Source of the DNA: Candidatus Wallbacteria bacterium
GTDB lineage: Bacteria > Muiribacteriota > JAQTZZ01
Reading direction: 5' to 3'
NCBI GenBank assembly: GCA_028687545.1
Contig: JAQTZZ010000022.1
Span: 1 to 62,175 of the forward strand
DNA: 62,175 bases
This document shows positions 4,407 through 47,632 of the stretch, piece after piece. Each line of letters opens with the position of its first letter. Position 1 is the stretch's first letter. Both the position numbers and the translations under genes were made by a program. A model generated the notes under the pieces. The model was not told where the DNA came from. It made no database searches and saw only the letters and a list, made by a program, of their open reading frames with translations.

Positions 4407-4430
4407 CTATCATATTATCGGTAAATATTA

Positions 4431-4450
4431 GTGAATGGTGAATGGTGAAT
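4431..4450. repeat. Short GTGAATG tandem repeat
   Basis: About three near-perfect copies of the 7-mer GTGAATG lie in the 53-nt gap between the barrel-protein and TPR genes. No function is evident. Confidence 0.5.
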
Positions 4451-4459
4451 TGATAATGA

Positions 4460-8904: not shown

Positions 8905-8909
8905 ACGGA

Positions 8910-9248
8910 TTAATTTCCTGTCAGGGCTGCAATCGCTTCCTGCGTATCCTCGAAAATCTTGAAAAAATCGATCAGTCTGGTCAGTTCAAAGACGTTTTTC
9001 ACATCATGGGAAAGTTCGGATAAAATCAGCTTTTTCCCGGCTTCTTTGGCGGCGCGTAAAATCCCGGTAAGAATCCCGAGACCAGAGCTGTCGATGTAGC
9101 GTACATTTTTCAAGGAAATGACCAGGCCGTTGTGCTTTCCGAGAAGTTTTTTCAGTTCTTCTTCTAGTTCTTCTGAATTATAAAAATCGATATCCTCAAA
9201 TATCGATACTATGGCGTATCCGTCCTTGATTTCACTGCTCAGCTTCAC
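8910..9248 (-). CDS. STAS-domain anti-anti-sigma-factor-like protein
   Basis: The 112-residue single-domain protein has the SpoIIAA/RsbV fold pattern. The loop YIDSSGLGIL carries the conserved phosphorylatable Ser (Ser54 by comparison with SpoIIAA). In known systems the unphosphorylated form binds an anti-sigma kinase and frees a sigma factor or other client. No RsbW-type kinase gene is present here, so the partner is unknown. The start is a GTG preceded by GGAGGGG. The gene lies 5 nt upstream of the histidine-kinase gene and 25 nt after the permease gene. Confidence 0.9.
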   Translation of the reverse strand: MKLSSEIKDGYAIVSIFEDIDFYNSEELEEELKKLLGKHNGLVISLKNVRYIDSSGLGILTGILRAAKEAGKKLILSELSHDVKNVFELTRLIDFFKIFEDTQEAIAALTGN

Positions 9249-9273
9249 CTATCCCCTCCTCAAAAAAAATAGC

Positions 9274-10377
9274 TCAGCGCAGTTCCTTGATAATATCATT
9301 TTTCATGATGATAGTAAAGATGGCGGTCGAAAGCAAAAAGATAAACAACAGAATCAGCGAGTAACCTGACTTGTCGATGGCCAGGCTCAGCTTGAAATCG
9401 ATGGAGTCGATTCCGTAAACACCCTGAGGCAGTGGATAGCTTGGGAATACTTTGAAAATAAAAGCCAGCAGAGTCATGGCTCCCAGTAATCCGAGATGGG
9501 AATTAAGAGCGAGATCTGCGAACAGAACGGTAAAAAGCCTCAATCTGCCGATCCCCATCACTCTGGTGATCAGGATGTCGCGGCTGATCTTCGAAAGACG
9601 CAACTGGTAAATATTCAAAACAACCAGAAAAACCGTGAAATAATAGACTGCCAGGAACAACCTGAAAAACAGGTTTTCAGTGCTCTTCGCCTTGGCAAGT
9701 TCAGGATTGCGCTCCCAGAAGCTTTGAAGCCTGAAACCTTCGAATTTTCCTGCAGCCTGCCTGACCAGTTCAGACGAACCGTAGATCTCTATTTCATTGA
9801 TGCAGGGAATCTCCTTGAGCCTTGAAAGCCCTTCCAACCCAAGCAGCACATGGTAACTGTCGTAATCGTAATATCCTGTATCCACAAAACCTGAGCAATC
9901 GAAATCCGCGCTTTCATTCAAGAGGAAGATCCTGGCTTCGCAGCTCCCGGAAAGTGCCAGCTCCCGCTTCAGGTTGACACCCGGGATCATGCCTTCCCCC
10001 GGCTTGCGCTCCAATTTGTAGATTCCGGGATTACGCCGCAGCTTCGCAGGCAGATCCAGATAAGTGTCCAGCATTACTCCCAGAGCTTTTCCTCCTGATT
10101 CTATCACAGCCGGAGACGAGGCCACCGGAAAAAATTCGACTCCTGCCGGAGGCGCAGCATTTTTCAGCGCCACTTCCCATTGTTCAGGCAGGATCGCCTC
10201 CCGCTCAGGTATCAGATAGTATTCAGGATATACGCTGAGGAGCCGATTCCAGAACACCCCATGCAGATTACCCCTGAAAATGTTGAAAACAAACAGAACC
10301 GTCAGTGTGACTGTGAACAGGAGCACAGTCCAGAGCCCTGATCTGCGCCAGCAGAAAATGCGGAGAAAGTAGATCAT
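9274..10377 (-). CDS. FtsX/MacB-like ABC transporter permease
   Basis: The 367-residue protein has one N-terminal membrane helix (about 15-35), a large extracytoplasmic domain (about 40-230), and three C-terminal helices (about 235-260, 285-310, 335-357). This is the topology of FtsX/MacB/LolC permeases. No ATPase gene is found on either side; such permeases normally sit next to theirs. Upstream lies the edge of the defence island, so the ATPase gene may have been displaced. The ATG has GAGG about 8 nt upstream. Family assignment rests mainly on topology and so is moderate. Confidence 0.65.
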   Translation of the reverse strand: MIYFLRIFCWRRSGLWTVLLFTVTLTVLFVFNIFRGNLHGVFWNRLLSVYPEYYLIPEREAILPEQWEVALKNAAPPAGVEFFPVASSPAVIESGGKALGVMLDTYLDLPAKLRRNPGIYKLERKPGEGMIPGVNLKRELALSGSCEARIFLLNESADFDCSGFVDTGYYDYDSYHVLLGLEGLSRLKEIPCINEIEIYGSSELVRQAAGKFEGFRLQSFWERNPELAKAKSTENLFFRLFLAVYYFTVFLVVLNIYQLRLSKISRDILITRVMGIGRLRLFTVLFADLALNSHLGLLGAMTLLAFIFKVFPSYPLPQGVYGIDSIDFKLSLAIDKSGYSLILLFIFLLSTAIFTIIMKNDIIKELR

Positions 10378-17609: not shown

Positions 17610-17683
17610 TTTTCTACCTCCACAAAGACTCTTTCAATCAGCCCCAAAAAATCATCACTCTTTTCGATTAATTCCGCCCTCAT
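17606..17683 (-). CDS. 25-residue micro-ORF linking hsdS and the DUF3644 gene
   Basis: The ATG overlaps the hsdS stop as ATGA, and the TGA overlaps the GTG start of the DUF3644 gene as GTGA, so the ORF exactly bridges the two genes with 4-nt overlaps at both ends. The peptide is acidic (many Glu and Asp, ending EVEK) and amphipathic. The GGAGGT inside its last codons is the RBS of the next gene. It may be a translational coupler, a small inhibitor of the HEPN-like protein, or the decayed end of a longer gene. It is too short for any family call. Confidence 0.5.
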   Translation of the reverse strand: MRAELIEKSDDFLGLIERVFVEVEK

Positions 17684-19101
17684 CTTTCAAACGCCTCTCT
17701 CATCACTGATCGCATAAACAATTGTGAACATTCTTTCATCTCCGTTGTTTGTTTTTCCAATTGGTTTACTGCAGCCAAAAAGCTATCAATTTTCTTAATA
17801 ATAATCCGCAGCTCTAAAAGACTAGGTAATGGTAGAACAAATCGATGTAACTCTTGACCAGTAAAATGTTTAATACCAGAACCGGTAAGATATTTATCTA
17901 AGTATCCTGTCATCTTAGATAAATACAAAAAATATAAAAAAAACTTATTAATTTCTTCCTCTAAAAAACGAACTCTATGTATCGCTTTTTGGTAGTAAAT
18001 CGCATAATCGCTATTCCATATTGCAGCTCTACCAGGATAACCTCCTTCACAAATCAGTAGGTCCCCTTTTCTCGCAGTACATTTTTCGTATTCATTCGTT
18101 TGAAATCGCATTTCGAGTAAATCCGACAAGTCGAAATCAAACCACCGAACATTAAGGTTTCTCAAATATTTTTGATGAGTGCCTTTGTTTTTTGACCTGT
18201 CCAACATTTTTCCGAGTGAGTGTAATGATATTCCCCCAACCCTGCACCACACCCAGCCTTTAGGTAAATTGAATGGTATTTCATTTTCTGAAATTGGTGG
18301 CTGCGGTTTTTCTTTCTTAATTTTATTTTCTTTAATCATCTGCTCTTTTTTAGATCTGATTTTCTCAAGCCATTTCGAAGCATGATTTTCGCCACTGATC
18401 AAATCAGGGTTCTGCTTCCGCCATTTTTCTGTAAGTTTGCCTTCAATTGCTTCCTGCAGAATTGCTTGCCTGAGAGATGATATGTATGACGATTGGTTTG
18501 AAAATTCATCTTGTAAATCTCTACAAGAAATATTGATTTTATTGAACAACTCGACAAACGAGATCTGTTCTCTCATAGGTGGAACCGTGATTTTAATTCC
18601 TGCAATGTCCTTGATTGCCAAAGACACATTTGCTGCACCTTTCATCAATGGTACAATTTTCTTATCTTTAAAAAACTGAAGATATCGATGCAGATATGCT
18701 GCTGACAGTACTTTAGGGTTCCTCGGTATCACAGCTGCTAAAATTGTACCAAGTGCAAATTTACCTTCTTGGTAATGAACATAATTCAGTGTTTTTTTTC
18801 CATGCCCTGTTGACGACACAAGCGGTATACAAACAGCTGCAGTGTTAAATTGGTATGAACTACAGGATTTTCTATCAGCACTAGTATTAACTAATGGATA
18901 TTTACCAGGTGTGGCACTGGCAATTCCAGTTTCACCCTTTTCAATTTTACAAAGTTCGCCCAAGGTAGAAGTTGGAAAAGCACTCTTTCTTTTCTCTTTG
19001 TCCATTTTCTTCACTGCTGGATCAGTATCTGAGTTATAAAATGAAGAGTCATTGGATAATTCTTCCTCCATGTATTGACCTTTTCCGATTTTATCAATCA
19101 C
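17680..19101 (-). CDS. hsdS: Type I restriction enzyme specificity subunit
   Basis: The 473-residue protein has two target-recognition domains in tandem, each ended by a long conserved helix. TRD1 spans about 40-180, with the central helix near 185-260 (SSYISSLRQAILQEAIEGKL). TRD2 spans about 275-430, and the distal helix near 430-470 contains FLAAVNQLEKQTTEM. It confers DNA sequence specificity on both the methylase and the restriction complex. The GTG start overlaps the hsdM stop by 8 nt and has AAGGAG upstream. The stop overlaps the start of the 25-codon ORF. Recognition sequence cannot be read from the protein. Confidence 0.92.
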   Translation of the reverse strand: MIDKIGKGQYMEEELSNDSSFYNSDTDPAVKKMDKEKRKSAFPTSTLGELCKIEKGETGIASATPGKYPLVNTSADRKSCSSYQFNTAAVCIPLVSSTGHGKKTLNYVHYQEGKFALGTILAAVIPRNPKVLSAAYLHRYLQFFKDKKIVPLMKGAANVSLAIKDIAGIKITVPPMREQISFVELFNKINISCRDLQDEFSNQSSYISSLRQAILQEAIEGKLTEKWRKQNPDLISGENHASKWLEKIRSKKEQMIKENKIKKEKPQPPISENEIPFNLPKGWVWCRVGGISLHSLGKMLDRSKNKGTHQKYLRNLNVRWFDFDLSDLLEMRFQTNEYEKCTARKGDLLICEGGYPGRAAIWNSDYAIYYQKAIHRVRFLEEEINKFFLYFLYLSKMTGYLDKYLTGSGIKHFTGQELHRFVLPLPSLLELRIIIKKIDSFLAAVNQLEKQTTEMKECSQLFMRSVMREAFER

Positions 19102-20527
19102 CTGAAATCTCCTTGCTCAGCTTGTTCAAGAGGACTTCACTTTTACAAAAAGAGTCATGAAGCAGTGATAGTAATTCACTACTCGAAAGAGTATGTTCAG
19201 ACTTAATAACATGAGGGTTTTTGATATCCAAATTAAATCCGGTTTCCTCAATCTGCTTGATGGCAACCTTCCACGCCTGCTCATTTTCCCTTCTGCTGTT
19301 CCACCATTTTTTGAGGCTGTCAAACTCTTCTACACGAATAGGTTTCGTTTTATTGTATGCCTTTACACTTTCTGGCAGCTTGTGTTCCCAGTACCAGATT
19401 TCTTCAGTTTTCTTTCCTTTTTCAAAGAAGAGAAGATTTGTGGCAACACTTGCATAGGGTTGAAAAACTGAGTTTGGTAACCTGACAATGGTATGAAGGT
19501 TGCAGTTTTCCAGGAAAAACTGACGAATTCGCTGTTTAACACCATCACCTGTTAAAGACCCATCCGGTAAAACTATTCCAGCCCGGCCGTCTTCATTTAA
19601 AAATCGAACCATCAGCAAAAGGAATAAATCAGCGCTTTCTGTTGTCCTGTAATTTAGAGGAAAGTTTGTTTCCACTCCATCGGTTACAGAAGCGCCAAAA
19701 GGTGGATTTGCCAGTATCACATCCACTTGGTCTTTTTGCCTTATAGAAGTGTATTCTCTGTTCAAACTGTCAGTGTAATCCACATTCGGGACTTCGATAT
19801 CATGAAGGATGAGATTAGTGACGCACAGCATGAAAGGCAATGGTTTCAGCTCCATGCCATGAATATTAGCTTCCAGTTTTTTCAGGTCTTCTACACCCTT
19901 CACATCTTGTCTTCTGATATTTTCAATTGCGCTGGTTAAAAATCCACCTGTGCCGCAGGATGGGTCAAGTATCTTCTCCCCAAGCCTTGGATTGACCATT
20001 TCTGTTATGAACTCAGTCAGTGCCCTTGGTGTGTAGAATTCTCCATAATTACCGGCACTTTGCAGATCACGCAGTATTGTCTCATAAATATCTCCGAAAA
20101 CATGCCTGTCTTCAGAGCTGTTAAAATCGATCTTGTTCAGTTCATTAATCACCTGGCGGATGATTGTTCCGTTCTTCATGTAGTTATTTGTGCCTTCAAA
20201 AATCTCCCGGATTATGAGAGCACGCTTGTTGCCTGGGCTGACCTCCAGATTTTTCAGATCAGGAATTAAAGTGCCGTCAACGAAATTCTTGAGCTTATCG
20301 CCTGTCAGTCCTTCATCATTGGCTGCCCAGCTTCTCCATTGAAGATGTTTGGGTATCGGAGATTTATATTTAACATTAAGAAGTTCCAGCTCCTGATCCT
20401 TGTCGTCAAGGATTTTCAGGCTGATCATCCAGCCCAGTTGCTCGATGCGCTGGGCATCTCCGGATACGCCGGAATCTTTTCTCATTATGTTCTGGAGCGA
20501 TTTGATAATGCTTCCAATGTTTTTCAT
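19094..20527 (-). CDS. hsdM: Type I restriction-modification N6-adenine methylase subunit
   Basis: The 477-residue protein has an N-terminal helical HsdM_N domain (about 5-130), then the methylase domain with the SAM-binding motif LDPSCGTGGFL and the catalytic NPPFG motif. These place it in the gamma class of N6-adenine methylases. With HsdS it methylates the host site; with HsdR it forms the restriction complex. Its ATG follows AAGGAG. The hsdR gene ends 9 nt upstream and hsdS overlaps its end. Length is normal for the family. Confidence 0.95.
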   Translation of the reverse strand: MKNIGSIIKSLQNIMRKDSGVSGDAQRIEQLGWMISLKILDDKDQELELLNVKYKSPIPKHLQWRSWAANDEGLTGDKLKNFVDGTLIPDLKNLEVSPGNKRALIIREIFEGTNNYMKNGTIIRQVINELNKIDFNSSEDRHVFGDIYETILRDLQSAGNYGEFYTPRALTEFITEMVNPRLGEKILDPSCGTGGFLTSAIENIRRQDVKGVEDLKKLEANIHGMELKPLPFMLCVTNLILHDIEVPNVDYTDSLNREYTSIRQKDQVDVILANPPFGASVTDGVETNFPLNYRTTESADLFLLLMVRFLNEDGRAGIVLPDGSLTGDGVKQRIRQFFLENCNLHTIVRLPNSVFQPYASVATNLLFFEKGKKTEEIWYWEHKLPESVKAYNKTKPIRVEEFDSLKKWWNSRRENEQAWKVAIKQIEETGFNLDIKNPHVIKSEHTLSSSELLSLLHDSFCKSEVLLNKLSKEISGD

Positions 20528-20536
20528 GTTTACTCC

Positions 20537-22927
20537 TTAGGCCACTTCGTAAAGCAAGTGTTCAAGCTCTTCAAGCGCTTTCATGTAGTTTTCCCGGCCG
20601 CCAAAACTCTGCACAATCTCAAGCGGTGTTCCGAACCCATTAAAAGGCTCAACCCTGAGTATGTCTAGGTCTTCAAGATTCATGACCCCACCATCAGCGT
20701 ACTTATCCAACAGGGCTTCCAGAACTTTCCGTACTTTCTCGCCATACTTGGCAAAATAGTTTCTCTTTTTCACTTTATCAACCCGCTCACGCCTTGTGAG
20801 TGGAGGCATATCCCAGGCAATGTGGCAGATAAGATCGAATACATCAAGATCTGCGTCCACTTCTGCTGCCAAGTTTTCAAGACTTACACCATGATTTTCC
20901 AATTCATCAATCACTGCTGACTTTCTCTGCGAACTGTTCCAGCGGGTCAGAAAGGAATCAAGCGATCTGTATTCTCTGAGAATGCCCTTCTTTGTGTAAT
21001 CCTTGAGACTCTCAATGATCAATTTTCCATCAGGGCCTGGAAATTGCCTGCGTTCGCTCAATACAGTGACATCAACACCATTGATGTAAACTTTTCTTGC
21101 GGGCTCTGAGATTATTTCGCCGCCCGGAACAATACCAGGAATTGGAGGCGGATCAGGATCTGAAATTATTGGTGGAAATCTTGGCTCAGGGTTCTTGCCA
21201 GAACCATCATCGTCTTCATCATCATCTGGGATTTCATCATCTCCATTGATCTGCTTGACCATTACTGGCTCACCGTCGAAATCAGGATCAGCAAACAGAT
21301 CAGTCACATTCCGGAAATCCATGATTGTAAAAAACATTTTTCCGTATTCTTCATTGATCCGCGTGCCTCTACCTATGATCTGTTTGAATTCAGTCATTGA
21401 TCTGATGTTTGAATCCAGCACGATCAGCTTGCAGGTCTGGGCATCCACCCCTGTTGTCATCAATTTGGAAGTAGTGACAATTACCGGATATCTTTCTTCA
21501 GGGTTGATAAAATTATCCACTTCCCTTTTTCCGATTTCGTCATCACCGGTTATCCTCATCACATACTTGTGGCTGGCTTGGACCAGATCAGGATTTTCAT
21601 TGACCAGGGCCTGCCTCATCCGCTCAGCATGTTCAATATCAACGCAGAAAACAATGGTTTTGTCATACTTCCCGGTTTTAGAAAGAAATTCAGTTATTAT
21701 TCTGGCAACAATCTGGGTCCGCTCATCAATTACCAGGTTTTTATCATAATCCAGGGTATTGTAAATGCGATCTTCTATGAGATTACCGTCTATATCCGTT
21801 TTGCCGGTTTCAGGTCTGTAGCCTTCCAGATCAGTGTTCAAACCTATTCGGAGAACTTTGTAAGGGGCCAGGAACCCGTCTTCAATGCCCTGCTTCAGAG
21901 AGTATGTATAGATTGGATCTCCAAAGTATTCGATGTTTGAAACATCCTCTGTTTCCTTGGGCGTTGCAGTGAGACCAATCTGAGTTGCTTTATTGAAATA
22001 CTTGAGTATGTCTCTCCAGGCGCTGTCCTCTTTTGCACTGCCCCTATGACATTCATCAACTACAACCAGATCAAAAAAATCACGGCTGAATTCTTTATAA
22101 ACATCTTTATCTTCATCATTACCTGATAAGCCCTGATAAAGAGCAAGATAGATCTCGTAAGCTTTATCAATGGTTCTTTGCTTTATCACAGTCATTTTTT
22201 CTTTAAAATGCCTGAAATCATTACGCTTTGCTTGACCGATCAGGATTTTACGATCAGCCAGAAACAGGATCCGTTTTTTCTGCCCGCTTTTCCAAAGCCG
22301 ATGAATAATTTGAAATGCTACTAAGGTTTTCCCGGTTCCAGTAGCCATGACCAGCAAGATCCGGTTTTGTCCGCATGCAATTGCTTCTACAGTCCTGTTA
22401 ATCGCGATTTGCTGGTAATAGCGAGGTTTCTTTCCTGTGCTATCAAAAAAATAATCAAAGGTAGCTATTCTTTCCTGATCCGGAGTATCGATTTTTTTGT
22501 ATTTTTTATAGCAAGTCATAAGTTCGGATAGCCGTGGGAATTCACTAAGTAAAAGATTACGTTCGACAGTGCCAAAGTGTCCGGATTTATCATGCATTAC
22601 AAAGCCGTCACCATTTGAACTGAATGCCACAGGTACGTCAAGAATTGAGGCATAATCCAATGCCTGCTGCATTCCTGCACCTAAAGAATGATTGTTATCC
22701 TTTGCCTCGATTACTGCAATCGGGATGTTGGGTTTCATGTACAGGATAAAATCAGCGAATTTCCGTTCGCCTCTGGCTGTCTTGTTACCTTTTAATAAAA
22801 TACGCCCGTCTGTAAAATAAACATTTTCCCTGATATGTTTCTGAACATCCCAGCCCGCCATGACAAGCGCTGGTAATATGAATTTAGTGCAAATATCACG
22901 TTCTGAAAGGTCTTTTTTATTCATCAT
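20537..22927 (-). CDS. hsdR: Type I restriction endonuclease subunit (EcoEI-like)
   Basis: The 796-residue protein opens with a nuclease domain (KFADFILYMK, AVIEAKD giving the (D/E)xK). SF2 helicase motifs follow: ATGTGKT (Walker A), VVDECHRGS (Walker B, DECH) and GLTATP, with motif VI at IGRGTRI. The C-terminal ~150 residues fit the EcoEI HsdR C-terminal domain. It translocates DNA and cleaves unmodified molecules. A very acidic then Pro-rich linker (about residues 556-604) separates the helicase from the C-terminal domain. It is the first gene of the operon, with an extended -10 promoter just upstream. All key motifs are intact, so the system is probably active. Confidence 0.94.
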   Translation of the reverse strand: MMNKKDLSERDICTKFILPALVMAGWDVQKHIRENVYFTDGRILLKGNKTARGERKFADFILYMKPNIPIAVIEAKDNNHSLGAGMQQALDYASILDVPVAFSSNGDGFVMHDKSGHFGTVERNLLLSEFPRLSELMTCYKKYKKIDTPDQERIATFDYFFDSTGKKPRYYQQIAINRTVEAIACGQNRILLVMATGTGKTLVAFQIIHRLWKSGQKKRILFLADRKILIGQAKRNDFRHFKEKMTVIKQRTIDKAYEIYLALYQGLSGNDEDKDVYKEFSRDFFDLVVVDECHRGSAKEDSAWRDILKYFNKATQIGLTATPKETEDVSNIEYFGDPIYTYSLKQGIEDGFLAPYKVLRIGLNTDLEGYRPETGKTDIDGNLIEDRIYNTLDYDKNLVIDERTQIVARIITEFLSKTGKYDKTIVFCVDIEHAERMRQALVNENPDLVQASHKYVMRITGDDEIGKREVDNFINPEERYPVIVTTSKLMTTGVDAQTCKLIVLDSNIRSMTEFKQIIGRGTRINEEYGKMFFTIMDFRNVTDLFADPDFDGEPVMVKQINGDDEIPDDDEDDDGSGKNPEPRFPPIISDPDPPPIPGIVPGGEIISEPARKVYINGVDVTVLSERRQFPGPDGKLIIESLKDYTKKGILREYRSLDSFLTRWNSSQRKSAVIDELENHGVSLENLAAEVDADLDVFDLICHIAWDMPPLTRRERVDKVKKRNYFAKYGEKVRKVLEALLDKYADGGVMNLEDLDILRVEPFNGFGTPLEIVQSFGGRENYMKALEELEHLLYEVA

Positions 22928-24614: not shown

Positions 24615-26456
24615 TCAGGCGTAAAGAACGGAGATCCTCTCCTTGGCGAGCATGAAATACGGGCTGTCAGCAGTGCCTTCGTTCACTATCCGCTGGTACT
24701 CTTCGATCGCCTTTTTGAGATCCTTCGAAGCTTCATAGACATTAGCCAGATTGTAGCGGGCTTCCAGGTATTTGGGATTGATGGAAATGGCTTTTTCAAG
24801 CATTTCAGTAGCTTGCTTGAAATCTTTGAGCAGGAAATACGTTTTGCCCAGGTAATTCATGCTGTCGGCAAAATGTGGAAATTCGGCGATCAATTCAGAC
24901 AGCACGATCTTGGCTTTGTCGAGCTGCTCGCCTTTCAGGTAGGCGAGTCCCAACAGATTCTTGGCTTCCTTGTACTTCTGGTTGATCTTCAGGGCAGACT
25001 GGAAACTGTCGGCTGCTTCAGTGAACAATCCCTTTTCCATATAGGCCTGCCCCAGATAATAATGGCAGTCAGCATAATTCGGATTCAGTTTGATCGCGTC
25101 CTTGTATTCCTGGATGGCTTCGTCGATCATGCCCTTGGCCTTATACGCCAGGCCGAGATTGTAGTAAGCTCCGGCATACTTGGGCTCCATTTCCTTGACT
25201 TTCTTCCACTTGTTGGCAGAGCCATAGACATTCTTTACGCTGTCCATGATTTTTTCCATGAAACCCGGCTCTGATTTCTTCTCCCCGCAGACCTTTGCGG
25301 CTAGTTCGTCGATTACCTTGCTGAAGCCGTTTTCCGGATCAAGCTGAAAGAGAGGCTGACCCCGGTTCAGGGATGCGATACAGGCTTCAGAAGAGTATGG
25401 AAGTTCGCTGTAAACAGGTTTTCCGAAGGAGTTGGTAATGTTTTCAGTGGTAATAGCCTTGTTTTTTCCGCTTTTATTAATCATCAGCTTGATCTTGTCT
25501 GTAGCATAGTTGAGATTTTCCAGGAGTTTCAGGGCAGCGCGGGAATTCTTGATCCCGATCAGGTCCACATCTGCGATCAGAAGCAGTACGTCAGCCAGGT
25601 CAAAAGCGCAGAGAGTGACATCCGAGAAATACGAGGCAGTATCAACTACCACATATTGATACTTACCTTTCAGATTGGCTAAAATTTCATATGCAGCCTG
25701 ACGCGGTATCAGTTCCGCCTCCTCAGGAATGTGCGGGGCAGGCAGAATTTTCAGATTGTCGGTCCCGGTCTTTTCCAGATATTTTTCCACCGTAGCAGCG
25801 GAAAACCCCTTTTCGTTCTGGATCAGATCTACTATGGTGTTGCTGTGCATCAGGTTGAACATCAGGGCCTGGTCCCCGAACTGCAGGTCATAATCCACGA
25901 TCACAGTGGAATGTCCTCGCTTGGCAATGGCGGTTGCCAGGTTGGCAATGATCGTGCTCCGGCCACATCCGCCTCGTGGCGAACAGACAGCAACAATCTT
26001 GCCTTCTTTGGGAGCCTGATCTCCTGCGGTTGTCGTTTTGGCAGCTCTCTCCTTGAATCTCTGAGACATGACTTTCATGATCTTGAGGCTGATGGAGAGA
26101 TTCACTTTCAGCAGAGTGTCGAATTTTTCTTTGGTGATCGCAAGGAGCTGGCATTCGGTCTCACAGATGATGGTTGCGTTTCTTGGCTCTCCCTCGATCA
26201 AAGCCATTTCTCCAAAAAAATCGCCTTCAGCCAGTTCAGCGACCTTCTGCTGTTCATTCTCGATCTTCTTCATCACACTGACGGTGCCTTTTTTTATGAT
26301 GTAGAAGATGTCGCCCGGGTCGCCCTGATAAAACAGGACTTTGCCTTTCTGAAAGTTTTTAGTCTCAATCAAATCATTGATTTTCTTCAGCGACTCCTCT
26401 TCGAGGTTGTGGAAGATCGGGATCTGCTTCAGAAATTCCATGAAGTCACCTGCCAT
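24615..26456 (-). CDS. cNMP-binding / CpaE-like ATPase / TPR fusion protein
   Basis: Three domains lie in 613 residues. Residues 10-125 form a cyclic-nucleotide-binding domain with its phosphate cassette (GDFFGEMALIEGEPRNAT; Glu83, Arg92). Residues 150-400 form a ParA/MinD-superfamily ATPase of the CpaE type. Its P-loop SPRGGCGRST has Arg in place of both usual Lys residues, while VDYD (188-190) and VVVDTASYFSD keep the remaining motifs. Residues about 420-613 are TPR repeats. CpaE proteins place pilus or secretion machinery at the pole. The ATG follows the STAS-TPR gene by 2 nt; the Met at residue 6 is an alternative start. Cyclic-nucleotide-gated positioning is inferred. Confidence 0.85.
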   Translation of the reverse strand: MAGDFMEFLKQIPIFHNLEEESLKKINDLIETKNFQKGKVLFYQGDPGDIFYIIKKGTVSVMKKIENEQQKVAELAEGDFFGEMALIEGEPRNATIICETECQLLAITKEKFDTLLKVNLSISLKIMKVMSQRFKERAAKTTTAGDQAPKEGKIVAVCSPRGGCGRSTIIANLATAIAKRGHSTVIVDYDLQFGDQALMFNLMHSNTIVDLIQNEKGFSAATVEKYLEKTGTDNLKILPAPHIPEEAELIPRQAAYEILANLKGKYQYVVVDTASYFSDVTLCAFDLADVLLLIADVDLIGIKNSRAALKLLENLNYATDKIKLMINKSGKNKAITTENITNSFGKPVYSELPYSSEACIASLNRGQPLFQLDPENGFSKVIDELAAKVCGEKKSEPGFMEKIMDSVKNVYGSANKWKKVKEMEPKYAGAYYNLGLAYKAKGMIDEAIQEYKDAIKLNPNYADCHYYLGQAYMEKGLFTEAADSFQSALKINQKYKEAKNLLGLAYLKGEQLDKAKIVLSELIAEFPHFADSMNYLGKTYFLLKDFKQATEMLEKAISINPKYLEARYNLANVYEASKDLKKAIEEYQRIVNEGTADSPYFMLAKERISVLYA

Positions 26457-26458
26457 AA

Positions 26459-27454
26459 TTATTTAAGATCCTTCTTTAATTTTCTGATCTCAGCCCTTAC
26501 TTTGTCTTTATCCTCATCGTTATTCAAGAATTTGACAAGAGTAGTAAGCTCCTTGATGGCGTTTTCCGGTTCTTCCATTTCCTCGTAGGCATGTGCCAGA
26601 TTTCTCAGGGCGTCAATGAATCCGGGATTGATTTTCAGTGCAGACTTGAAGCTCTTCACAGCCTCATTATAGTCTTTCTTCCCCTTCAGTGCTGCTCCCA
26701 GCTTGTTTAAAACGTCGGCATAGTTCGGATGCACATCAAGTGCCTTGCGGTAATGGCAGATGGCATCATCGAGCATGGAATCATCGTTATACAGCAGACC
26801 CAGGGCGATCAAGGCGTCCGAATACTTGGGATTGATCTTCAGGGCGGCCTTGTATTTTTCACCAGCTTCTTTAACTTTGCCGAGTTGTTTCAGGACATCG
26901 CCAAGCCGCTTATGGGCATCGGCGTAATTAGGATTGATGTCCAGAGCGCGCTGGAATTCATCTCTTGCTTCCTCGAACATGCTTTTATTTACATAGGCAA
27001 GCCCCAGATGGTAGTAAGCATCGGCATAATTAGGCTTGATTTCCACGACTTTCTTCCATTTCATGATTGCCCTGGAAATGTTGTCCTTGAAGTCGCTCGT
27101 TGCTTCCTCGTAGCTCTCGTAAATGCTGATGAAGAAATCCAGGTGGATCAAGTCGAACAAGCGCTTGATGTAAGGATGAAGCTTGACAATCTTCAGATCG
27201 CCGTTGTGATCCCTCAAAAGCTTCAGAGTTGCAGTGAAAAAGCCGATTCCGGAACTGTCGATGTACTCAAGTTTAGCCAGGTCCATCAGGATGTTAAACC
27301 GCTCCTGCTCCACCAGCATGTCAATGATTTCCTGGGCCCGGGGGAGCGTGTACATATCGAGCTCACCGATGAGTTCGAAAATTGTGATCCCTTCCTGAGT
27401 CCTGATGTTGTAAGAAATCCGGTTTAATTCCTGTTCATTGGTTTCCATCATCAT
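26459..27454 (-). CDS. STAS-TPR fusion protein
   Basis: From the first of three consecutive ATGs at 27454 (AAGGAGTGA upstream) the protein is 331 residues. Residues about 12-122 are a STAS domain with the loop YIDSSGIGFF (Ser67). Residues about 127-330 hold TPR repeats (YHLGLAYVNKSMFEEARDEF and similar). STAS proteins switch by Ser phosphorylation, and the TPR block offers partner binding. The repeats resemble those in the next gene, so the two may work together. It follows pnp by 35 nt in the rpsO-pnp operon. A longer start at 27499 would overlap pnp and lacks support. Confidence 0.87.
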   Translation of the reverse strand: MMMETNEQELNRISYNIRTQEGITIFELIGELDMYTLPRAQEIIDMLVEQERFNILMDLAKLEYIDSSGIGFFTATLKLLRDHNGDLKIVKLHPYIKRLFDLIHLDFFISIYESYEEATSDFKDNISRAIMKWKKVVEIKPNYADAYYHLGLAYVNKSMFEEARDEFQRALDINPNYADAHKRLGDVLKQLGKVKEAGEKYKAALKINPKYSDALIALGLLYNDDSMLDDAICHYRKALDVHPNYADVLNKLGAALKGKKDYNEAVKSFKSALKINPGFIDALRNLAHAYEEMEEPENAIKELTTLVKFLNNDEDKDKVRAEIRKLKKDLK

Positions 27455-27489
27455 AACTCTGCTCACTCCTTTTGCTTTATTTTGATAAA

Positions 27490-29577
27490 TTAAAGACAAT
27501 CCTTCCGGCTCAAGTTGACCCTGTTCTGGGAATCGATTTCGATCACCTTCACCTGGATCATGTCTCCCACGTTGACAACATCTTCCACTTTATTTACACG
27601 TTCCTTGGCCAGCTTGGAGATGTGGACCAGGCCTTCTTTTCCCGGCAGTATTTCCACGAAGGCACCGAAATTCATGAGCCTGGTGACGCGGCCGTCATAG
27701 ATCTTGCCTATTTCGACATCAGCAGTGATGTCGTCGATCATTTTCTTGGCCTTGTCCGATCCTTCTGCGGATACAGAATAAATACGTACTGAACCGTCGT
27801 CTTCAATGTCGATTTCCACACCAGTGTCGGCAATGATCTTCTTGATCATTTTACCGCCCGGCCCGATCACATCCTTGATCTTTTCGATGTCAATGAAGAA
27901 GGCTGTAATCCGTGGAGCGTGAGGAGAGAGCTCTTTTTTGGGTTCTGCGATGCATTGATTCATCTTTCCCAGAATGAACAGTCTGGCATCTTTGGCTTGA
28001 ACCAATGCCTGCTGCATAATTTCAAATGACAATCCTTTGATCTTGATGTCCATCTGAAGGGCAGTAATTCCGTCTTTGGTGCCTGCCACCTTGAAATCCA
28101 TGTCTCCGTAATGATCTTCCAGGCCCTGAATGTCGGTGAGAACCGTGAATTTCTCACCTTCTTTGACCAGTCCCATTGCCACGCCGGCAACAGCTTTCTT
28201 GATGGGCACGCCGGCTTCCATGAGTGCAAGAGATGTGGAGCAGACCGTCGCCATCGAAGATGATCCGTTTGACTCCAGGATTTCGGAAACTACCCTGGTA
28301 GTATAAGGAAACTCTTCATCAGAAGGGATCAGCGGTAAAATCGCCCGCTCGGCCAGTGCGCCATGTCCGATTTCTCTTCTGCCCGGGCCTCTCAGCTGTT
28401 TGACTTCTCCAACCGAAAAGGGAGGAAAGTTATAATGCAGCATGAAACGCTTATATGAGTCCTGGCCCATGGAGTCGATCATCTGGGCATCTTTGGCGGT
28501 TCCAAGTGTCACGATTCCAAGTGACTGGGTCTGGCCCCTGGTAAAGAGAGATGAACCATGCACGCGGGGCAGGACACTGATCAGACATTCGATCGGCCTG
28601 ATTTCAGTAGTTTTGCGGCCGTCGGCACGGAAGTTTTCCAGTACAATCAGTGAACGGACTTCCTGCTTGATCACTTCTTCGACAGTATTTTTTATGACGT
28701 AAATTTTTTCAGCCCGTTCCTGCTCCTGATACTTGCTTTCATATGAGGCGGTAATTTCCTGGTCAATAACCGCTAAAGCCTGGGACCGCTGCTTCTTATC
28801 AAAGATCTTGACCGCTTCTCTGATGCGGGAACGATTGGCCTTCGCGATCTCATCCGACAATGCCTTATCCGTAGGAACTTTTTTGTATTTTTTGACCGGT
28901 TTTCCGCATTTTTTCTTCAGCTCGTCCTGAATCGCGATAATTTTCCTGATCTCTTCATGGGCAATCCGGATTGCTTCGAGCATCGTTGCTTCAGAAGCTT
29001 CCTTTGCCCCGGCTTCCACCATGCAGATTGCATCTTTTGTTCCTGCCACGATCAGGTCAATCTCGCTCTGGACGAGTTCCGAATCAGAAATGTTGACGAT
29101 GAAACGGTCTCCGATTTTACCCATCCGAACGGCACCGACAGGATTTTCAAAAGGAATGTCTGAGATGGCAAGGGCGGTTGAAGATGCAACAATCCCTAAT
29201 GCCTGTGGCGAGTTTTCCTTGTCCATGGCAAGTGGAGAGACAATCACCTGCACTTCTTCACGGTAATCATCAGGGAACAGCGGCCGGATTGGTCTGTCGA
29301 TCATTCTGGCGGCCAGCACGGCCTCGTCCGCAGGGCGGCCTTCCCTCTTGAAGAATCCACCCGGGATCTTTCCTGTAGCATAATCGCGCTCGCGAAATTC
29401 TATGGTCAGCGGAAAAAAATCGCTGAAACCCGGTTTTTCCATCGCACAGACGGTTGCCAGCAACACGGTATCACCATATCTGAGAACGCATGCTCCGTCA
29501 GCCTGTTTTGCTACTCTCCCGGTTTCAATGACCAGCTTTTTTCCACCAATTTCTAGCTCTACTGATTCAATTGGCAT
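27490..29577 (-). CDS. pnp: Polynucleotide phosphorylase
   Basis: The 695-residue protein has the full PNPase layout: two RNase PH domains (about 10-230 and 315-540, the second with LRGPGRREIGHGALAERA), an alpha-helical linker, a KH domain (about 552-610, IGPGGKMIKKI) and an S1 domain (about 620-690, FVEILPGKEGLVHIS). It degrades RNA from the 3' end with phosphate as part of the degradosome. It lies 13 nt after rpsO, the classic rpsO-pnp order, and is followed by two TPR fusion genes. Confidence 0.98.
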   Translation of the reverse strand: MPIESVELEIGGKKLVIETGRVAKQADGACVLRYGDTVLLATVCAMEKPGFSDFFPLTIEFRERDYATGKIPGGFFKREGRPADEAVLAARMIDRPIRPLFPDDYREEVQVIVSPLAMDKENSPQALGIVASSTALAISDIPFENPVGAVRMGKIGDRFIVNISDSELVQSEIDLIVAGTKDAICMVEAGAKEASEATMLEAIRIAHEEIRKIIAIQDELKKKCGKPVKKYKKVPTDKALSDEIAKANRSRIREAVKIFDKKQRSQALAVIDQEITASYESKYQEQERAEKIYVIKNTVEEVIKQEVRSLIVLENFRADGRKTTEIRPIECLISVLPRVHGSSLFTRGQTQSLGIVTLGTAKDAQMIDSMGQDSYKRFMLHYNFPPFSVGEVKQLRGPGRREIGHGALAERAILPLIPSDEEFPYTTRVVSEILESNGSSSMATVCSTSLALMEAGVPIKKAVAGVAMGLVKEGEKFTVLTDIQGLEDHYGDMDFKVAGTKDGITALQMDIKIKGLSFEIMQQALVQAKDARLFILGKMNQCIAEPKKELSPHAPRITAFFIDIEKIKDVIGPGGKMIKKIIADTGVEIDIEDDGSVRIYSVSAEGSDKAKKMIDDITADVEIGKIYDGRVTRLMNFGAFVEILPGKEGLVHISKLAKERVNKVEDVVNVGDMIQVKVIEIDSQNRVNLSRKDCL

Positions 29578-29590
29578 CGTTTATTCCTTT

Positions 29591-29860
29591 TCAACCTCTG
29601 ATATTCAGTTTCTGGATCAAAGTGCGGTACTTTTCCAGGTCGCTGTTTTTCAGGTAATTTAGTAATCTGTGCCTGCGTCCAACCATTTTCAGCAGTCCCT
29701 GTCTGGAATGGTGATCTTTGGAATGAGCTTTGAAATGGTCGTTGAGTGATCTGATCCTCTCAGTGAGAACCGCAATCTGCACTTCGGCAGAGCCTGTGTC
29801 CCGCTCATGTTGGGCATAAGCCTTGATGACTTCGGTTTTCTTTTCCTTGGTGATGCTCAC
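29591..29860 (-). CDS. rpsO: 30S ribosomal protein S15
   Basis: The 89-residue protein starts at a GTG with a very strong GGAGGGAGG site 5 nt upstream. The frame stays open further upstream, but the extra residues do not belong to S15. The sequence carries the S15 core ([36 protein letters not shown]-like [10 protein letters not shown]). S15 binds 16S rRNA and in other bacteria represses its own leader. It heads the rpsO-pnp operon. Confidence 0.97.
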
Positions 29861-29921
29861 GAATTCCTCCCTCCACTGGATCAAGCAGCAAACAGCCCCT
29901 AAACCAGGGTGATTTTTGGCC

Positions 29922-29951
29922 ATTTTACCACACCATTGGCGGGCATATCAA
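29922..29951 (-). promoter_or_regulatory. Promoter of the rpsO-pnp operon
   Basis: On the minus strand TTGATA is followed after 18 nt by TAAAAT, about 62 nt before the rpsO GTG. The leader of roughly 50 nt could host S15 autoregulation, but I see no clear pseudoknot. Confidence 0.6.
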
Positions 29952-34394: not shown

Positions 34395-37300
34395 ATGAAA
34401 TCGATTTTCTCATTAGTTTTAATAGTTTTTTTTGCAAGTGCTTCATTCTCTATTGATATTAATAAATCATACAAGATTATAAATTTTCCCCCTGCGCCAT
34501 TCATGCCAAATTTAGTACCATTGGCCCCACAACCCGATTCCCTTGAAACCTCTTCTTGTCTAACTGAACTCAAATCCCTGGATAACCTGATCGCCGCCTC
34601 ACTCTGGACACTTTATCTTTCCAAACAGATAACAAACCAGACAGCATCGGGGTCTGGTCGCACAACCGGGGACAGGCTCGTTCCCCAAAGCCCTGCCCAA
34701 AATACGACCTGTCTCCATAGTCATGCGCCCAAATCCGACCTGCCCCCATCTTTAAGCGAAACCATCGAGCAAATCTATGCCTCCTCCCTCGATGAAATAG
34801 ACCGCGGTTCAGCCTCAATTGCTGGTAAAATCACCCAGTGCCTAAAAAGTGGCGATAATCATCCATTTCGCGAATTCGCGATCTTTTTTCATAGATCTAC
34901 AGAAAATCAGAAAAGCGGTTTATCAACCCTGACAATGAAAATTGAGGAAAACCTGCGGAGTTTGAAAGTGGACTCTGTTCGTTCCCTAGACAATTCCGGT
35001 GCCTGTGCCGTTCCCAAAACCAATACCCAAGTCACAGCCTGGCACCGTGAAACAGGCATTGACCTGTCCTCATACTTGGCAGAACTGAAAGAAATCATCT
35101 CAGAAGCCAACTCAGCCCAGGTCAGCTTCGCCGGGTTTCAGATGGGTATCCCTGAACTGATCGTCAAATTTGGCTTCCTCGTGGTGGAATGCCACTCCGA
35201 TGCTCTGAAATCTTTCCTGGATAGCGGGAACAAGGATGAGTTCGTGAAACAAATGACCTGGGTTAACAAAACCTTTGAACTATACGGCAGGCTTAATTTT
35301 CTTTATGGCTCTCCTTCTTCAGACAAAGCGACACCGGCTGCTGAACAGGCTTACAGTACAGCTATGGATGACTATTACGCTAAGAAATATGCTTCAGCCA
35401 TATCCGGTTTCGAGAAAGTGATCACGCTTGACCCTGCCTATGCCGCAAAAAACGGATGCTATTACTGGATTGGGAAATCTTACGCAGGGCTTGGCAACGG
35501 CGTTAAAGCGATCGAAAATTACAAAACCAGTATCCGGACTGACGCCACTGACCCATATAAACGGAACTCTTATCTGGCCGGATTATCCTGGTACACAGAC
35601 CAGAATACTGAAAATTCACTGCTTTCGGCAGTCAGGTACATCGATGAAGTTCTCTCATTCGTGACCGACGACTATGTAATCCAGCACGCAAGATACGATA
35701 AAGGCGACCTTTATGTAAAACTTGCCTGGAGTTTTGCATCCTCTCCTGAGAACAATGAAAAATATGTCCTTGCAGCCATCGAAGCATACAGGTTTTTCAT
35801 CGATAATTTCACGAATGCAGGGCAGCCATACGGGCAGGATCAGGCCCAGGAAAACATCGCTGCGGCATACGGACGCTTATGGAACGTCACTGGCCTGGAT
35901 CCTTCAAAAAGACTGCAATACGCAAAACTTTGTTCTGAAGAATACATAAAACTCGCTGAAACCTATCCTGGCAGCACGCGTGCTCCTGAAGCTTACTATT
36001 CCGCGGCAGGCAATTACTGGTCAATGACTTCAAGTCTGATCAGCGAACTACCTGATAAGGAATCATACTTTCTGAAAGCCATCGCAGTTTATGAAAAGCT
36101 GCGTGCCGGATACCCTGCCCATCAGAAAAGCGAATTGGCTTTGTTCAACATTGGTACAGCTTACTGGCAGATCGGAGTTAGTATTTATACTTATCACTAT
36201 AATGAAACCGGGGAATGGATCATAAAACGGGACTATCTTCTCAAAGGCATCGAAACCTTGAAGAAGTACTTAGCCGACTATCCGGACGGGAGTCAGTATG
36301 CCGGCGCATTGAACTACCTTGGCAGCATATACAGTTCACTCGCAGAATCATATAAACAGGATGCTGATTTTGATATGATCAAGGAAAGTTACGATGCAGG
36401 CATCGGATGTTATCAGAATTACCTTTCACAGGTTGGTCTCAGTCTTGATAATAAAAGACAGACAATGGACGCAATTGCCATCTATTACAGGGAAATCTCC
36501 CGCGACTATCTCAAATACAAACAAGACGAAGTGAATCAGAAAAAATACGGACTGCTGGCAGTGGAGCAGTACAAAGAGCGTTACAATTTCGCTGGACTGG
36601 AAGGTTGGAAACCAGCTGCAGCCAGGGAGATCGGCAATACCTACAAGGAAATCAAAGATTATGATTCAGGGATCGAATGGTATGGGAAAGGCACAGGCAC
36701 AGCGGATACGTATTTCAATGGCCTGTGCTATCTGGGACAGGCTGAATGTTATTTTGAAAAGGGCCAGTACCAGACAGCCAGGGATTTGATTCAGAAGATT
36801 TTTAATGAAGGCAGTCCTTCGCCAGAGGCTTACTATTGCAGGGGAAGAATCGAAGCCATCTTTGGGAATTATTCCAAAGCGCATCAAGACTTTGCCCTTA
36901 TAGTGCAATATTGTGCTTCTGCATCCTGGGAATACAATGACATCACCGACAAGTGTAAAGATGAAATCCGAAAACTTCTCAAGGTCAGGATCACGCCAGT
37001 CACCGACTACATAGAACCGAACACCAAACAGAATTTCACTGCCGAGATAGTCTACAACGACTCGATGGAAACACTAGCAATGGTGCCTGGGTCAGCGATC
37101 AAGGAATGGGTCTGGCTTGTAAATGGAGGTGCTCCCGGAGCAGGCTACCTGCCAAGCAGTACAAACATCCTGACTTATACGGGACAAGGCGATTTCAACG
37201 ATATTCTTACTGCTAAATGCAGGATCGATGCGGGGGTATACGGTGTAAGGGCGGTTACACCAGAAATTTGGATTGAGGGGAATAACCAGGTACCGGTCAG

Positions 37301-38765
37301 TTTGGTGAATGAGGATGAAAAAAGAGTCAGGGTTGTACCGATTTACTATCCGGATTGCGGGAAAAGTTGCGGCATTTCCCCGAATAATAAAAACACACAC
37401 GGATTCACGATCATATTCAAGGCCCCTTATTTTACCGACAATGCCAGCGCTCTGAATTTGATTTACGATTCCAATGATTTTTCCCTTGGCGTGGTGTCCG
37501 AAATGACTGAGACTCAAAAAGGAAAGTTTGAAACGTCTGCTGGAAAAGTGCGAATTGTTATTACAAAACCCCTTCCATCAGAGCCAATAATCACTAAGTC
37601 TTTGCATGAAGATCAGGGTGACCTGGAATTTGTATTGACTGGGCTTGGTTTTGATAATGAGAAAATCACCATACCTATGATCCAACTACAGCAATTCTCA
37701 ACAGACCCTTCAGCTCCGAGTAAATACTATGCTGCTTCTAATCAAGTTCATGATGAGGGTGATTGTCAGAATATCCCGCCTGAAACCGGCTTGACAAAAA
37801 ACTGCAAATTTTTCGTCAAGATCGTCGATAACAGCGTCAATACTGATAAAATACTTATAAATCTCAAAAGCAATTCCGATCATATTGACAACTTGGAATG
37901 CGCGAGAAAAAAGTCCGGCAATTACATATCAAAACCTCTCTACCTTGTACCAGCTTCATTCAACGCACAAGATGTTTCTATAAACGGAGAAAAGTTCTCT
38001 GTTTTGAAAATAAATTCCCAGGAATCCTTGAATTACCAACCAGATATTTTTATTGATTATCCATTATCTGCAAGAAGAAAATCTGATGTGGCAGTCGGGC
38101 AAGGAAAAAATAAGGCGTATTTGACAACTGGATATAAAGATCTGGGAATCATTGGCCTGTTTGACCATCCTTTGACCATTAAAAAGGAGTTAGTAACGAA
38201 ACTTGGCTATTTTGCTGAAGCCGACTATAGTGCCACAAAAAGCGAAATCACAAAAGAAGTTATCAATACTAGCCTTTTCTATCTTGAAGTCCATGGAATG
38301 GTGGATGATGAGAATAAACCGAAAAAGTTTTTCGGATTTGGTGTTGAAAATTGGAAAACCTGGTTTCTAATGTGGCTACCTCTGACAGGAAGCAGTTTCT
38401 CAGCCGATCTTTTCTTGACTGCAAAAGATCTTCCACAAACCAAGTGCGGATTCGTATTCATCAATGCCTGCTACTCTGGAAAAGATACAGTTGCTCCATT
38501 GGAAAATCAGAATGAATCGTACCAGACCATTTTCACCAAATTAAATCCTACTGCAATTTTAGGATGGAAAGAATTTGTAAATACTACTCAGTCCAAGAGT
38601 TTTGCCACGTTGCTGTTTGAAAAAGTGAATGATCCTAAAAAATTAAAATTAACTGATGCGATTGACGCTGCTTTTGATGCTCTTCAACCAATTGGAGACA
38701 ACAGTGCCAACAGGGAAAACTTATGGCGTGAAGGCGACCTGGAAATGCAGGTAAAGGTCAATTGA
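34395..38765 (+). CDS. Secreted TPR protein with C-terminal caspase-like (clan CD) domain
   Basis: The 1456-residue protein has a signal peptide (about 1-22). Residues about 300-870 are TPR-like helical repeats (AYYNLG-like units such as APEAYYSAAGNYWS and YAGALNYLGSIYSSLAESY). Residues 875-1000 look like an Ig-like domain. The last ~220 residues resemble a caspase-fold peptidase: a strand then LEVHGM (His1300), and 59 residues on FINACYSG (Cys1359), the HG and (D/N)ACxSG pair of clan CD/CHAT enzymes. Secretion makes it unlike cytoplasmic CHAT effectors and nearer to gingipain-type exoproteases. A 713-bp part of its TPR region is copied downstream. Protease activity is inferred. Confidence 0.8.
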   Translation: MKSIFSLVLIVFFASASFSIDINKSYKIINFPPAPFMPNLVPLAPQPDSLETSSCLTELKSLDNLIAASLWTLYLSKQITNQTASGSGRTTGDRLVPQSPAQNTTCLHSHAPKSDLPPSLSETIEQIYASSLDEIDRGSASIAGKITQCLKSGDNHPFREFAIFFHRSTENQKSGLSTLTMKIEENLRSLKVDSVRSLDNSGACAVPKTNTQVTAWHRETGIDLSSYLAELKEIISEANSAQVSFAGFQMGIPELIVKFGFLVVECHSDALKSFLDSGNKDEFVKQMTWVNKTFELYGRLNFLYGSPSSDKATPAAEQAYSTAMDDYYAKKYASAISGFEKVITLDPAYAAKNGCYYWIGKSYAGLGNGVKAIENYKTSIRTDATDPYKRNSYLAGLSWYTDQNTENSLLSAVRYIDEVLSFVTDDYVIQHARYDKGDLYVKLAWSFASSPENNEKYVLAAIEAYRFFIDNFTNAGQPYGQDQAQENIAAAYGRLWNVTGLDPSKRLQYAKLCSEEYIKLAETYPGSTRAPEAYYSAAGNYWSMTSSLISELPDKESYFLKAIAVYEKLRAGYPAHQKSELALFNIGTAYWQIGVSIYTYHYNETGEWIIKRDYLLKGIETLKKYLADYPDGSQYAGALNYLGSIYSSLAESYKQDADFDMIKESYDAGIGCYQNYLSQVGLSLDNKRQTMDAIAIYYREISRDYLKYKQDEVNQKKYGLLAVEQYKERYNFAGLEGWKPAAAREIGNTYKEIKDYDSGIEWYGKGTGTADTYFNGLCYLGQAECYFEKGQYQTARDLIQKIFNEGSPSPEAYYCRGRIEAIFGNYSKAHQDFALIVQYCASASWEYNDITDKCKDEIRKLLKVRITPVTDYIEPNTKQNFTAEIVYNDSMETLAMVPGSAIKEWVWLVNGGAPGAGYLPSSTNILTYTGQGDFNDILTAKCRIDAGVYGVRAVTPEIWIEGNNQVPVSLVNEDEKRVRVVPIYYPDCGKSCGISPNNKNTHGFTIIFKAPYFTDNASALNLIYDSNDFSLGVVSEMTETQKGKFETSAGKVRIVITKPLPSEPIITKSLHEDQGDLEFVLTGLGFDNEKITIPMIQLQQFSTDPSAPSKYYAASNQVHDEGDCQNIPPETGLTKNCKFFVKIVDNSVNTDKILINLKSNSDHIDNLECARKKSGNYISKPLYLVPASFNAQDVSINGEKFSVLKINSQESLNYQPDIFIDYPLSARRKSDVAVGQGKNKAYLTTGYKDLGIIGLFDHPLTIKKELVTKLGYFAEADYSATKSEITKEVINTSLFYLEVHGMVDDENKPKKFFGFGVENWKTWFLMWLPLTGSSFSADLFLTAKDLPQTKCGFVFINACYSGKDTVAPLENQNESYQTIFTKLNPTAILGWKEFVNTTQSKSFATLLFEKVNDPKKLKLTDAIDAAFDALQPIGDNSANRENLWREGDLEMQVKVN
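35947..36659 (+). repeat. 713-bp direct repeat, copy A (within TPR/caspase gene)
   Basis: This internal TPR segment is matched by 39687-40399 at a constant offset of 3740 bases, without gaps. I found only a handful of mismatches, near the two ends. It is the source copy, inside an intact gene. Confidence 0.9.
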
Positions 38766-47400: not shown

Positions 47401-47617
47401 CGGAAAAATACTTAGTGCTCTGATTCGGGGATTCGTCGGTATAGAGAAATTCCGGCTGTACATCCTGCCAGAGCGGAGTCTGCGGGGATTCACCGTCATC
47501 CTGCACTACGGTGGTCGTGAGATCGCCGCTGTTGTTATTGTTGCATCCGATGAATATCAGGAAAAACCCGATTATCGGGACCATTGCCAGCAGGACGAAT
47601 TCCTTTTTTCTTTTCAT
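44420..47617 (-). CDS. Giant FnIII-repeat lipoprotein B (1065 aa)
   Basis: A paralogue of its neighbours, with lipobox IFIGC (Cys25), about four FnIII-like units (residues 50-400, for example YYVSAVDSQMRESFSG) and the shared C-terminal module. The conserved blocks appear as QHGMEGKDLHL, then DVDPWTN, and DTDGNGVDLYEF. The middle is unusually Trp/Tyr-rich (near residues 720-800), which suits ligand binding. It starts 15 nt after protein A and overlaps protein C by 14 nt. No enzyme motif was seen. Confidence 0.82.
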   Translation of the reverse strand: MKRKKEFVLLAMVPIIGFFLIFIGCNNNNSGDLTTTVVQDDGESPQTPLWQDVQPEFLYTDESPNQSTKYFSVYLSWKPVTTNSKGSTKKNIIAYKIYRDDKDKAVGVVSYGKEEYEDQDLTVLQSGKRITYYVSAVDSQMRESFSGPQMVDLQTYGAEPQPPMNFFLIPGTGNQVTLSWTEPENMQLCKNSGDEISKYRIQKHANNDAWKTIAMIPVESNYYVDEGLSPGNTYYYRVYAITHSGNGSLPSDERSIYFEHKSEDLLARSTAPENVSAVMFETTSNPYAVKVAWQRPIWNDDGQNGQDLCTDVVAFKVYRADTGTFDLTSAWGLIYKPIKIVYNLDFYVDSTVNLHTDTQTHFYRISAVNTRGVEGDLSYPVSVYTGYTTTGTKTPLRFRCTTDNEGKITFYWEFDANVEEYNILYSKNGIVYQSFKTLSKDSFPGYKTGDEVTCRDENYILDQDILYFKLQAYDHATRNTASNYGYYVKAEKPFFLTSDKVVIEAEDLVESCKVRSVWYAWYAQNLYHDRNISASSLWDYDLQRGEHYNMGVKTVWCTDDSKPYQCLYFDTMGRQHPPQESSPSNLFVGISDEVYHDDYVYTDLIDNNYSNTLLDERIRVLYPAQSPDYATVPRMCDSVRPIFKAKSKLSSSDNYNYQYITTYNDDGYSYWNDTDGNGVDLYEFYYVLTENPLLQHGMEGKDLHLDYDVDPWTNKTPTNFSNYHLGLWDNNYNWNYQYYEDWYLYHIPYYDFWWMLTTYKDRDFNYYYWFESWKQLDNWPANNYLNPMWLQIEISGDKTFTSRDVLPTVGLYNGGCAYFIGPDSNTKFVAKDYFADNFRAYGWDKVYPINWRSNYFGPLYSNSSPWYTGWWPNDAHQIVYTRNWRKDNSITFDEYGQGQDYTGTSWISPEGNNFSNIMYNTYDMYQEQLEFTWSPQETGYYNIDLYFLETSHSGNYMVIVKQKNQVVGAPFIINLSERGTDKDSGGFNNLTKATSSTFDATIARDGSLKKVYLYENQPVEFIFCCLGSNKVRDVFTTNYEMSMGSVFEMYLDRLEITKVQLNETN

Positions 47618-47632
47618 ATCTCACAGCCCCCT

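Follow-up and report, generated by a model that had tools for sequence, protein, structure and literature searches.

In bacterial cells MinD, ParA, FlhG and CpaE set the sites where machines are built, and these proteins are known to be switched by ATP, partner proteins, DNA and lipids. CpaE carries a C-terminal amphipathic helix, which is thought to attach it to the membrane (PMC13170226). In CpaE/TadZ proteins, loss of P-loop lysines is usual. In Liberibacter crescens the CpaE motif reads KGGVGSS, and in pathogenic Liberibacter CpaE has an arginine or a histidine at the signature lysine (PMC8513845). TadZ of E. rectale retains ATPase activity without either lysine, and K-to-A changes did not abolish the activity of a mycobacterial MinD (PMC10482377). 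CpaE/TadZ proteins are thus known to tolerate such changes of the P-loop (PMC8513845, PMC10482377). Literature on cyclic-nucleotide domains paired with MinD, ParA or CpaE was searched as well, and nothing on a cNMP-MinD/CpaE fusion family was found. Here we describe such a fusion, encoded in a window of 62,175 nucleotides (the whole stretch of DNA that was analysed) from a Candidatus Wallbacteria bacterium. On balance, the protein is probably a membrane-attached scaffold of the MinD/CpaE type that is modulated by a cyclic nucleotide and recruits a client through its TPRs.

Domains, ligand pocket and predicted membrane helix

The gene and the parts of its product, all on the minus strand, are as follows.

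24615..26456, minus strand: open reading frame of 613 aa for the cNMP-MinD/CpaE ATPase-TPR protein, or of 608 aa with Met6 as the start
26106..26360, minus strand: cNMP-binding domain, residues 33-117 (Pfam PF00027 cNMP_binding, 1.4e-25)
26172..26219, minus strand: phosphate-binding cassette FFGEMALIEGEPRNAT, residues 80-95, with E83 and R92 kept
25272..26000, minus strand: MinD/CpaE-type (SIMIBI) ATPase domain, residues 153-395 (Pfam, NCBIfam, 3ea0)
25953..25982, minus strand: variant Walker A SPRGGCGRST, residues 159-168; the signature and P-loop lysines are replaced by R161 and R166
25872..25898, minus strand: CpaE-type acidic motif VDYDLQFGD, residues 187-195, D188 invariant in the 24-sequence alignment
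25632..25652, minus strand: Walker B VVVDTAS, residues 269-275, D272 invariant in the same alignment
25221..25265, minus strand: predicted membrane-targeting amphipathic helix GFMEKIMDSVKNVYG, residues 398-412, matching the C-terminal helix of TPR-less relatives
24648..25184, minus strand: TPR tail, residues 425-603 (Pfam TPRs at 428-603)

The order of a cNMP domain, a CpaE-like ATPase and TPRs had been proposed in the initial annotation and was confirmed by Pfam, AlphaFold2 and Foldseek. Translation may start at Met6 (26441), for which the AGGTGA ribosome-binding site is better placed and which agrees with the position where the relatives begin. With 24 relatives as alignment input, AlphaFold2 folded the cNMP, ATPase and TPR parts at a mean pLDDT of 87.6, and values below 50 were limited to residues 142-148 and 395-422.

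The N-terminal domain was matched by the solved cyclic-nucleotide domains of PKA and PKG by sequence, and also by fold (Foldseek: PKA). Its pocket residues, stated earlier to be intact, proved to be so: the core G82-E83 and R92 are present and were kept in all 17 of the closest relatives in the alignment, one of which (L122) is partly masked outside the pocket positions. The protein thereby has both the Glu and the Arg by which the cassette of cNMP-binding domain proteins is recognized. The residue that follows the cassette Arg is Asn, as it is in many of these 17 relatives. The genome encodes 8 cNMP domains and 24 class III nucleotide cyclase domains, and the latter are a possible source of the ligand.

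The ATPase domain was recognized by the Pfam models AAA_31 (4.8e-13) and CbiA (1.8e-11), both starting at residue 153, and by NCBIfam minD_bact at 1.9e-21, which is under the equivalog cut-off of that model. Its best solved relative by sequence is 3ea0 (8.2e-19). The same ParA-family ATPase was the closest structure in Foldseek, with a TM of 0.91 on target length, and MinD and FleN were found besides. Both the MinD/ParA profile and the SIMIBI fold that mark the MinD/ParA/CpaE superfamily are thus present.

The nearest relatives have about 405-425 aa and stop shortly past the ATPase domain in a helix (GLMGKIKSLFG, KNIFSAVKDWFNS, GFMDKLKNMFS). Since the amphipathic moment alone was weak and uneven among the relatives, a sequence profile was used, which was built from eleven C-terminal helices of TPR-less relatives. 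Its best match in the focal protein was residues 401-412, EKIMDSVKNVYG, at 13.6 bits. This score was reached by 7 of 1000 shuffles of the focal protein and by none of the 192,333 12-mers of the background, which consisted of proteins from the gene neighbourhoods compared, with the last 30 residues of each excluded. By sequence, residues 401-412 resemble the membrane anchor of MinD and CpaE. In the focal protein the stretch is internal, with the TPRs following it. The linker that carries it has a pLDDT below 50, and the stretch may, as an alternative, cap the TPR array: a BLAST alignment to the adjacent STAS-TPR protein passes through it ungapped, though with few identities ahead of residue 416.

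A probable regulated scaffold with a two-arginine P-loop

In the reading that we favour, the ATPase of the MinD/CpaE family would be held at the inner face of the membrane by the short amphipathic helix, and the cNMP-binding domain occupies the position that the receiver domain usually has in CpaE. Binding of cAMP or cGMP would alter the dimerisation of the ATPase module or its hold on the membrane. The TPR tail would bring a client protein to the site of the complex. With its two arginines, the P-loop is probably still capable of ATP binding, with a turnover that would be slow or nil, and for this reason the protein is regarded as a regulated scaffold more than as a fast cycling ATPase. Computation shows the domains and fold, the kept E83/R92 and D188/D272, the conserved helix, the phylum-wide family and the many cyclases in the genome; that the protein binds a ligand, dimerises, attaches to the membrane, turns ATP over slowly and recruits a client is inferred.

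The P-loop SPRGGCGRST was found as described in the initial annotation, with arginine at both lysine places, and the remaining ATPase motifs are retained as claimed there: besides D188 and D272, also G163 and G165 are invariant in the 24 sequences, and the Ser behind the P-loop Arg is kept. The unusual nature of this P-loop stood in part. Among 58 homologues, all from the phylum, the residues at the signature/P-loop lysine positions were K/K in 28, R/K in 9, K/I in 6, K/R in 5, D/K in 3, K/C in 2 and T/V in 2, while R/R (the focal protein), K/L and G/K were found once each. The pair of arginines is thus unique in this set, whereas each of the two lysines is replaced in whole subfamilies, and the idea that this P-loop is a unique oddity was rejected. 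In the tree the focal branch is long and joins other long branches at weak forks, so its placement is uncertain and a single origin of the lysine loss cannot be read from it. A deviant Walker A motif has the signature lysine and the P-loop lysine, where the focal protein has R161 and R166. Because lysine loss is already known from CpaE/TadZ (PMC8513845, PMC10482377), the protein was classed with the superfamily as a relative of variant type, short of canonical membership. The natural sets of replacements in the family are material for asking what the role of these lysines is.

The two substitutions could also mean that the protein is a nucleotide-independent scaffold, that is, a pseudo-ATPase without useful ATP binding or hydrolysis, whose function would lie in the cNMP sensor, the helix and the TPRs alone. 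Both lysines are indeed replaced, other relatives in the phylum have lost the P-loop lysine too (to I, L, V, C or R), and the long focal branch fits a relaxed constraint. However, D188, D272, G163, G165 and the Ser behind the P-loop Arg are all kept, both changes preserve the positive charge, and E. rectale TadZ, which has neither lysine, is able to hydrolyse ATP (PMC10482377). We consider this reading unlikely. For the cyclic-nucleotide-modulated scaffold that we prefer, binding of ATP is plausible and fast turnover is not.

Gene neighbourhood and possible origin of the TPR tail

The focal gene lies in the rpsO-pnp cluster, of which the upstream members are listed here.

26459..27499, minus strand: protein with a STAS domain (Pfam STAS, 1.8e-19) and TPRs, two bases upstream of the focal gene
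27490..29577, minus strand: pnp, polynucleotide phosphorylase (TIGR03591), the gene upstream of it in the conserved cluster
29591..29923, minus strand: rpsO, ribosomal protein S15 (PF00312, 1e-35), first gene of the conserved cluster

The focal gene is probably co-transcribed with the STAS-TPR gene. The order rpsO-pnp-STAS-TPR is conserved at loci L174-L177 from three other families of the phylum, and none of these clusters has an ATPase gene after the STAS-TPR gene. In one of them (L176 5956-8058, genome G002) pnp is in two reading frames of 411 and 265 aa, owing to a sequencing error or a real break. A search at E <= 1e-20 did not recover the focal gene itself in G001, the only further genome of its family in the sample; even between these two genomes it is thus not conserved. 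No pilus, secretion, flagellar or division genes adjoin it.

The TPR part of the focal protein is 39% identical to the STAS-TPR protein over 194 aa (398-591) in BLAST. Given this resemblance between the two tails, the focal tail may have been captured from the adjacent gene; the similarity can also stem from the repeat itself. In the simplest history a cNMP-ATPase gene with a terminal membrane helix would have been inserted here, after which the TPRs would have been copied from the neighbour.

The proximity of the two genes also bears on a stress or partner-switch pathway, in which the STAS-TPR and the focal protein would use their related TPR tails to hold the same or paired clients, the former answering a kinase or phosphatase and the latter a cyclic nucleotide. 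The two bases between the genes, the likeness of the tails and the conservation of STAS-TPR behind pnp in several families of the phylum are in its favour. Yet in the other clusters the STAS-TPR gene has no ATPase gene behind it, which indicates that the pairing is recent or local. We hold such a pathway to be improbable; it is compatible with the scaffold modulated by a cyclic nucleotide, and both can hold together.

Elsewhere in the window several other features were observed. A type I restriction-modification set that looks complete is present on the minus strand at 17680-22927 (HsdS 17680-19101, HsdM 19094-20527, HsdR 20537-22927). At 41479-50725 three long minus-strand proteins of 984, 1065 and 1030 aa succeed each other, which weakly match fibronectin-type-III/Ig-like domains and belong to no further family. 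On the plus strand, an open reading frame of 1456 aa at 34395-38765 gave zero Pfam matches at 1e-6.

Family distribution and relation to known positioning systems

In a sample of 40 genomes from the phylum (Riflebacteria/Wallbacteria), matches that span the cNMP and ATPase domains were present in about 30, with nine copies in one genome (G015), as counted from the match list. With this distribution the view that the fusion is rare was rejected. Outside the phylum, 247 genomes were searched at E <= 1e-35 with the best 6 candidates per genome scored, and no match spanned both domains; eight of these genomes had a match, which fell in the ATPase part in seven of them and in the cNMP part in one. 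Among 50 genomes reached via other loci, fusions were found only in two Wallbacteria genomes (L085, L074), which have the same match coordinates as the phylum members G007 and G019. A cyclic-nucleotide-responsive positioning protein had been regarded as new in the initial annotation. The architecture is common within the phylum, including the order cNMP-ATPase-TPR, which recurs at L158, L164 and L189 in a separate subfamily of the tree that has no helix match. What stands of the claim is that no characterisation was found in the literature.

In another subfamily (L161) an FHA domain takes the place of the cNMP domain. At this locus a cNMP-ATPase gene (4361-5575, plus strand) and an FHA-ATPase gene (8181-9359, minus strand) are within 3 kb of each other, and the FHA-ATPase has Ile at the P-loop lysine (SPKGGTGIST). 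Similar pairs occur at L155, L157, L159 and L162, with the FHA domain confirmed by Pfam in L161 only. The subfamily with the P-loop NVKGGAGKS (L161 4361-5575, L155 4957-6189 and relatives) has lost the conserved cassette Arg of the cNMP domain, e.g. YGEVEILNGTKSLAT, and for that reason its cNMP domain has probably lost the capacity for cyclic-nucleotide binding.

The novelty is in the swap of the sensor and in the phylum-wide expansion, not in the P-loop. It is possible, although we put it forward tentatively, that a phylum-specific expansion of MinD/CpaE proteins has swapped its sensor repeatedly (cNMP, FHA, receiver), that the place and time of a client's retention at the membrane are thereby under the direct control of a cyclic nucleotide, and that the focal member took its client-binding TPRs from its neighbour. 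With up to nine copies per genome, the family may be a main signalling output in a phylum for which environmental genomes are almost the only source of knowledge. If the family is wired to cAMP or cGMP, control of positioning by a second messenger would become directly testable.

The other CpaE-like protein of the genome, at C8, has a receiver (REC) domain and its gene adjoins a CpaF-type ATPase gene. By this comparison the sensor is what differs in the focal protein, and the latter was rejected as the Tad CpaE of the genome, its neighbourhood being different. In the genus g5 (L125, L130) a cNMP-ATPase relative directly follows genes for a REC-CpaE, CpaF, two T2SSF proteins and DUF192, and in the family f5 the relatives are in another conserved cluster with YtfJ-like and diacylglycerol-kinase-like genes. 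These findings divide what the initial annotation had suggested, a cyclic-nucleotide-responsive polar or secretion positioning protein. The data support a CpaE-like ATPase that stands under a cyclic-nucleotide sensor, and the predicted helix and the Tad location in g5 agree with a role in positioning. The focal gene itself has no link to a cell pole or to secretion: it follows rpsO-pnp, and the CpaE-CpaF pair is elsewhere. That the protein is a second, cNMP-controlled CpaE for a CpaF/TadBC machine whose genes lie in another part of the genome is improbable, since against the g5 relative directly behind a Tad-type cluster and the presence in the focal genome of a CpaE-CpaF pair and many T2SSE ATPases stand the location of the focal gene in the rpsO-pnp cluster, the f5 relatives next to YtfJ-like, diacylglycerol-kinase-like and other genes instead of Tad genes, and a tree that does not establish orthology between the g5 gene and the focal gene.

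Compared with CpaE/TadZ of Tad pili, the focal protein shares an ATPase domain of the same family, an acidic motif of the DxDLQFGD type, a sensor domain at the N-terminus, the (here predicted) amphipathic helix that is C-terminal in CpaE, and tolerance of P-loop lysine loss (PMC13170226, PMC8513845, PMC10482377). It differs in that cNMP_binding is found at the N-terminus in place of the REC domain, that TPRs follow the helix, and that the gene belongs to the rpsO-pnp cluster instead of accompanying CpaF and TadB/TadC in a Tad cluster. With MinD and FlhG (FleN) it has in common the SIMIBI fold, solved MinD and FleN being among the best fold matches, and the predicted membrane-targeting helix, but it has no MinE, MinC or flagellar neighbourhood, its sensor and TPR domains are additional, and its P-loop is a variant. 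The closest solved structure, 3ea0, is a ParA-family ATPase from Chlorobium tepidum. Its P-loop, SAKGGDGGS, is likewise without the second lysine; the chain that was solved consists of an ATPase domain, with no cNMP or TPR domains. The Riflebacteria/Wallbacteria cNMP-MinD/CpaE fusions share the cNMP-ATPase order and, at L158, L164 and L189, also the TPRs. The nearest of these end at the helix without TPRs, and the focal protein alone among the 58 has both arginines.
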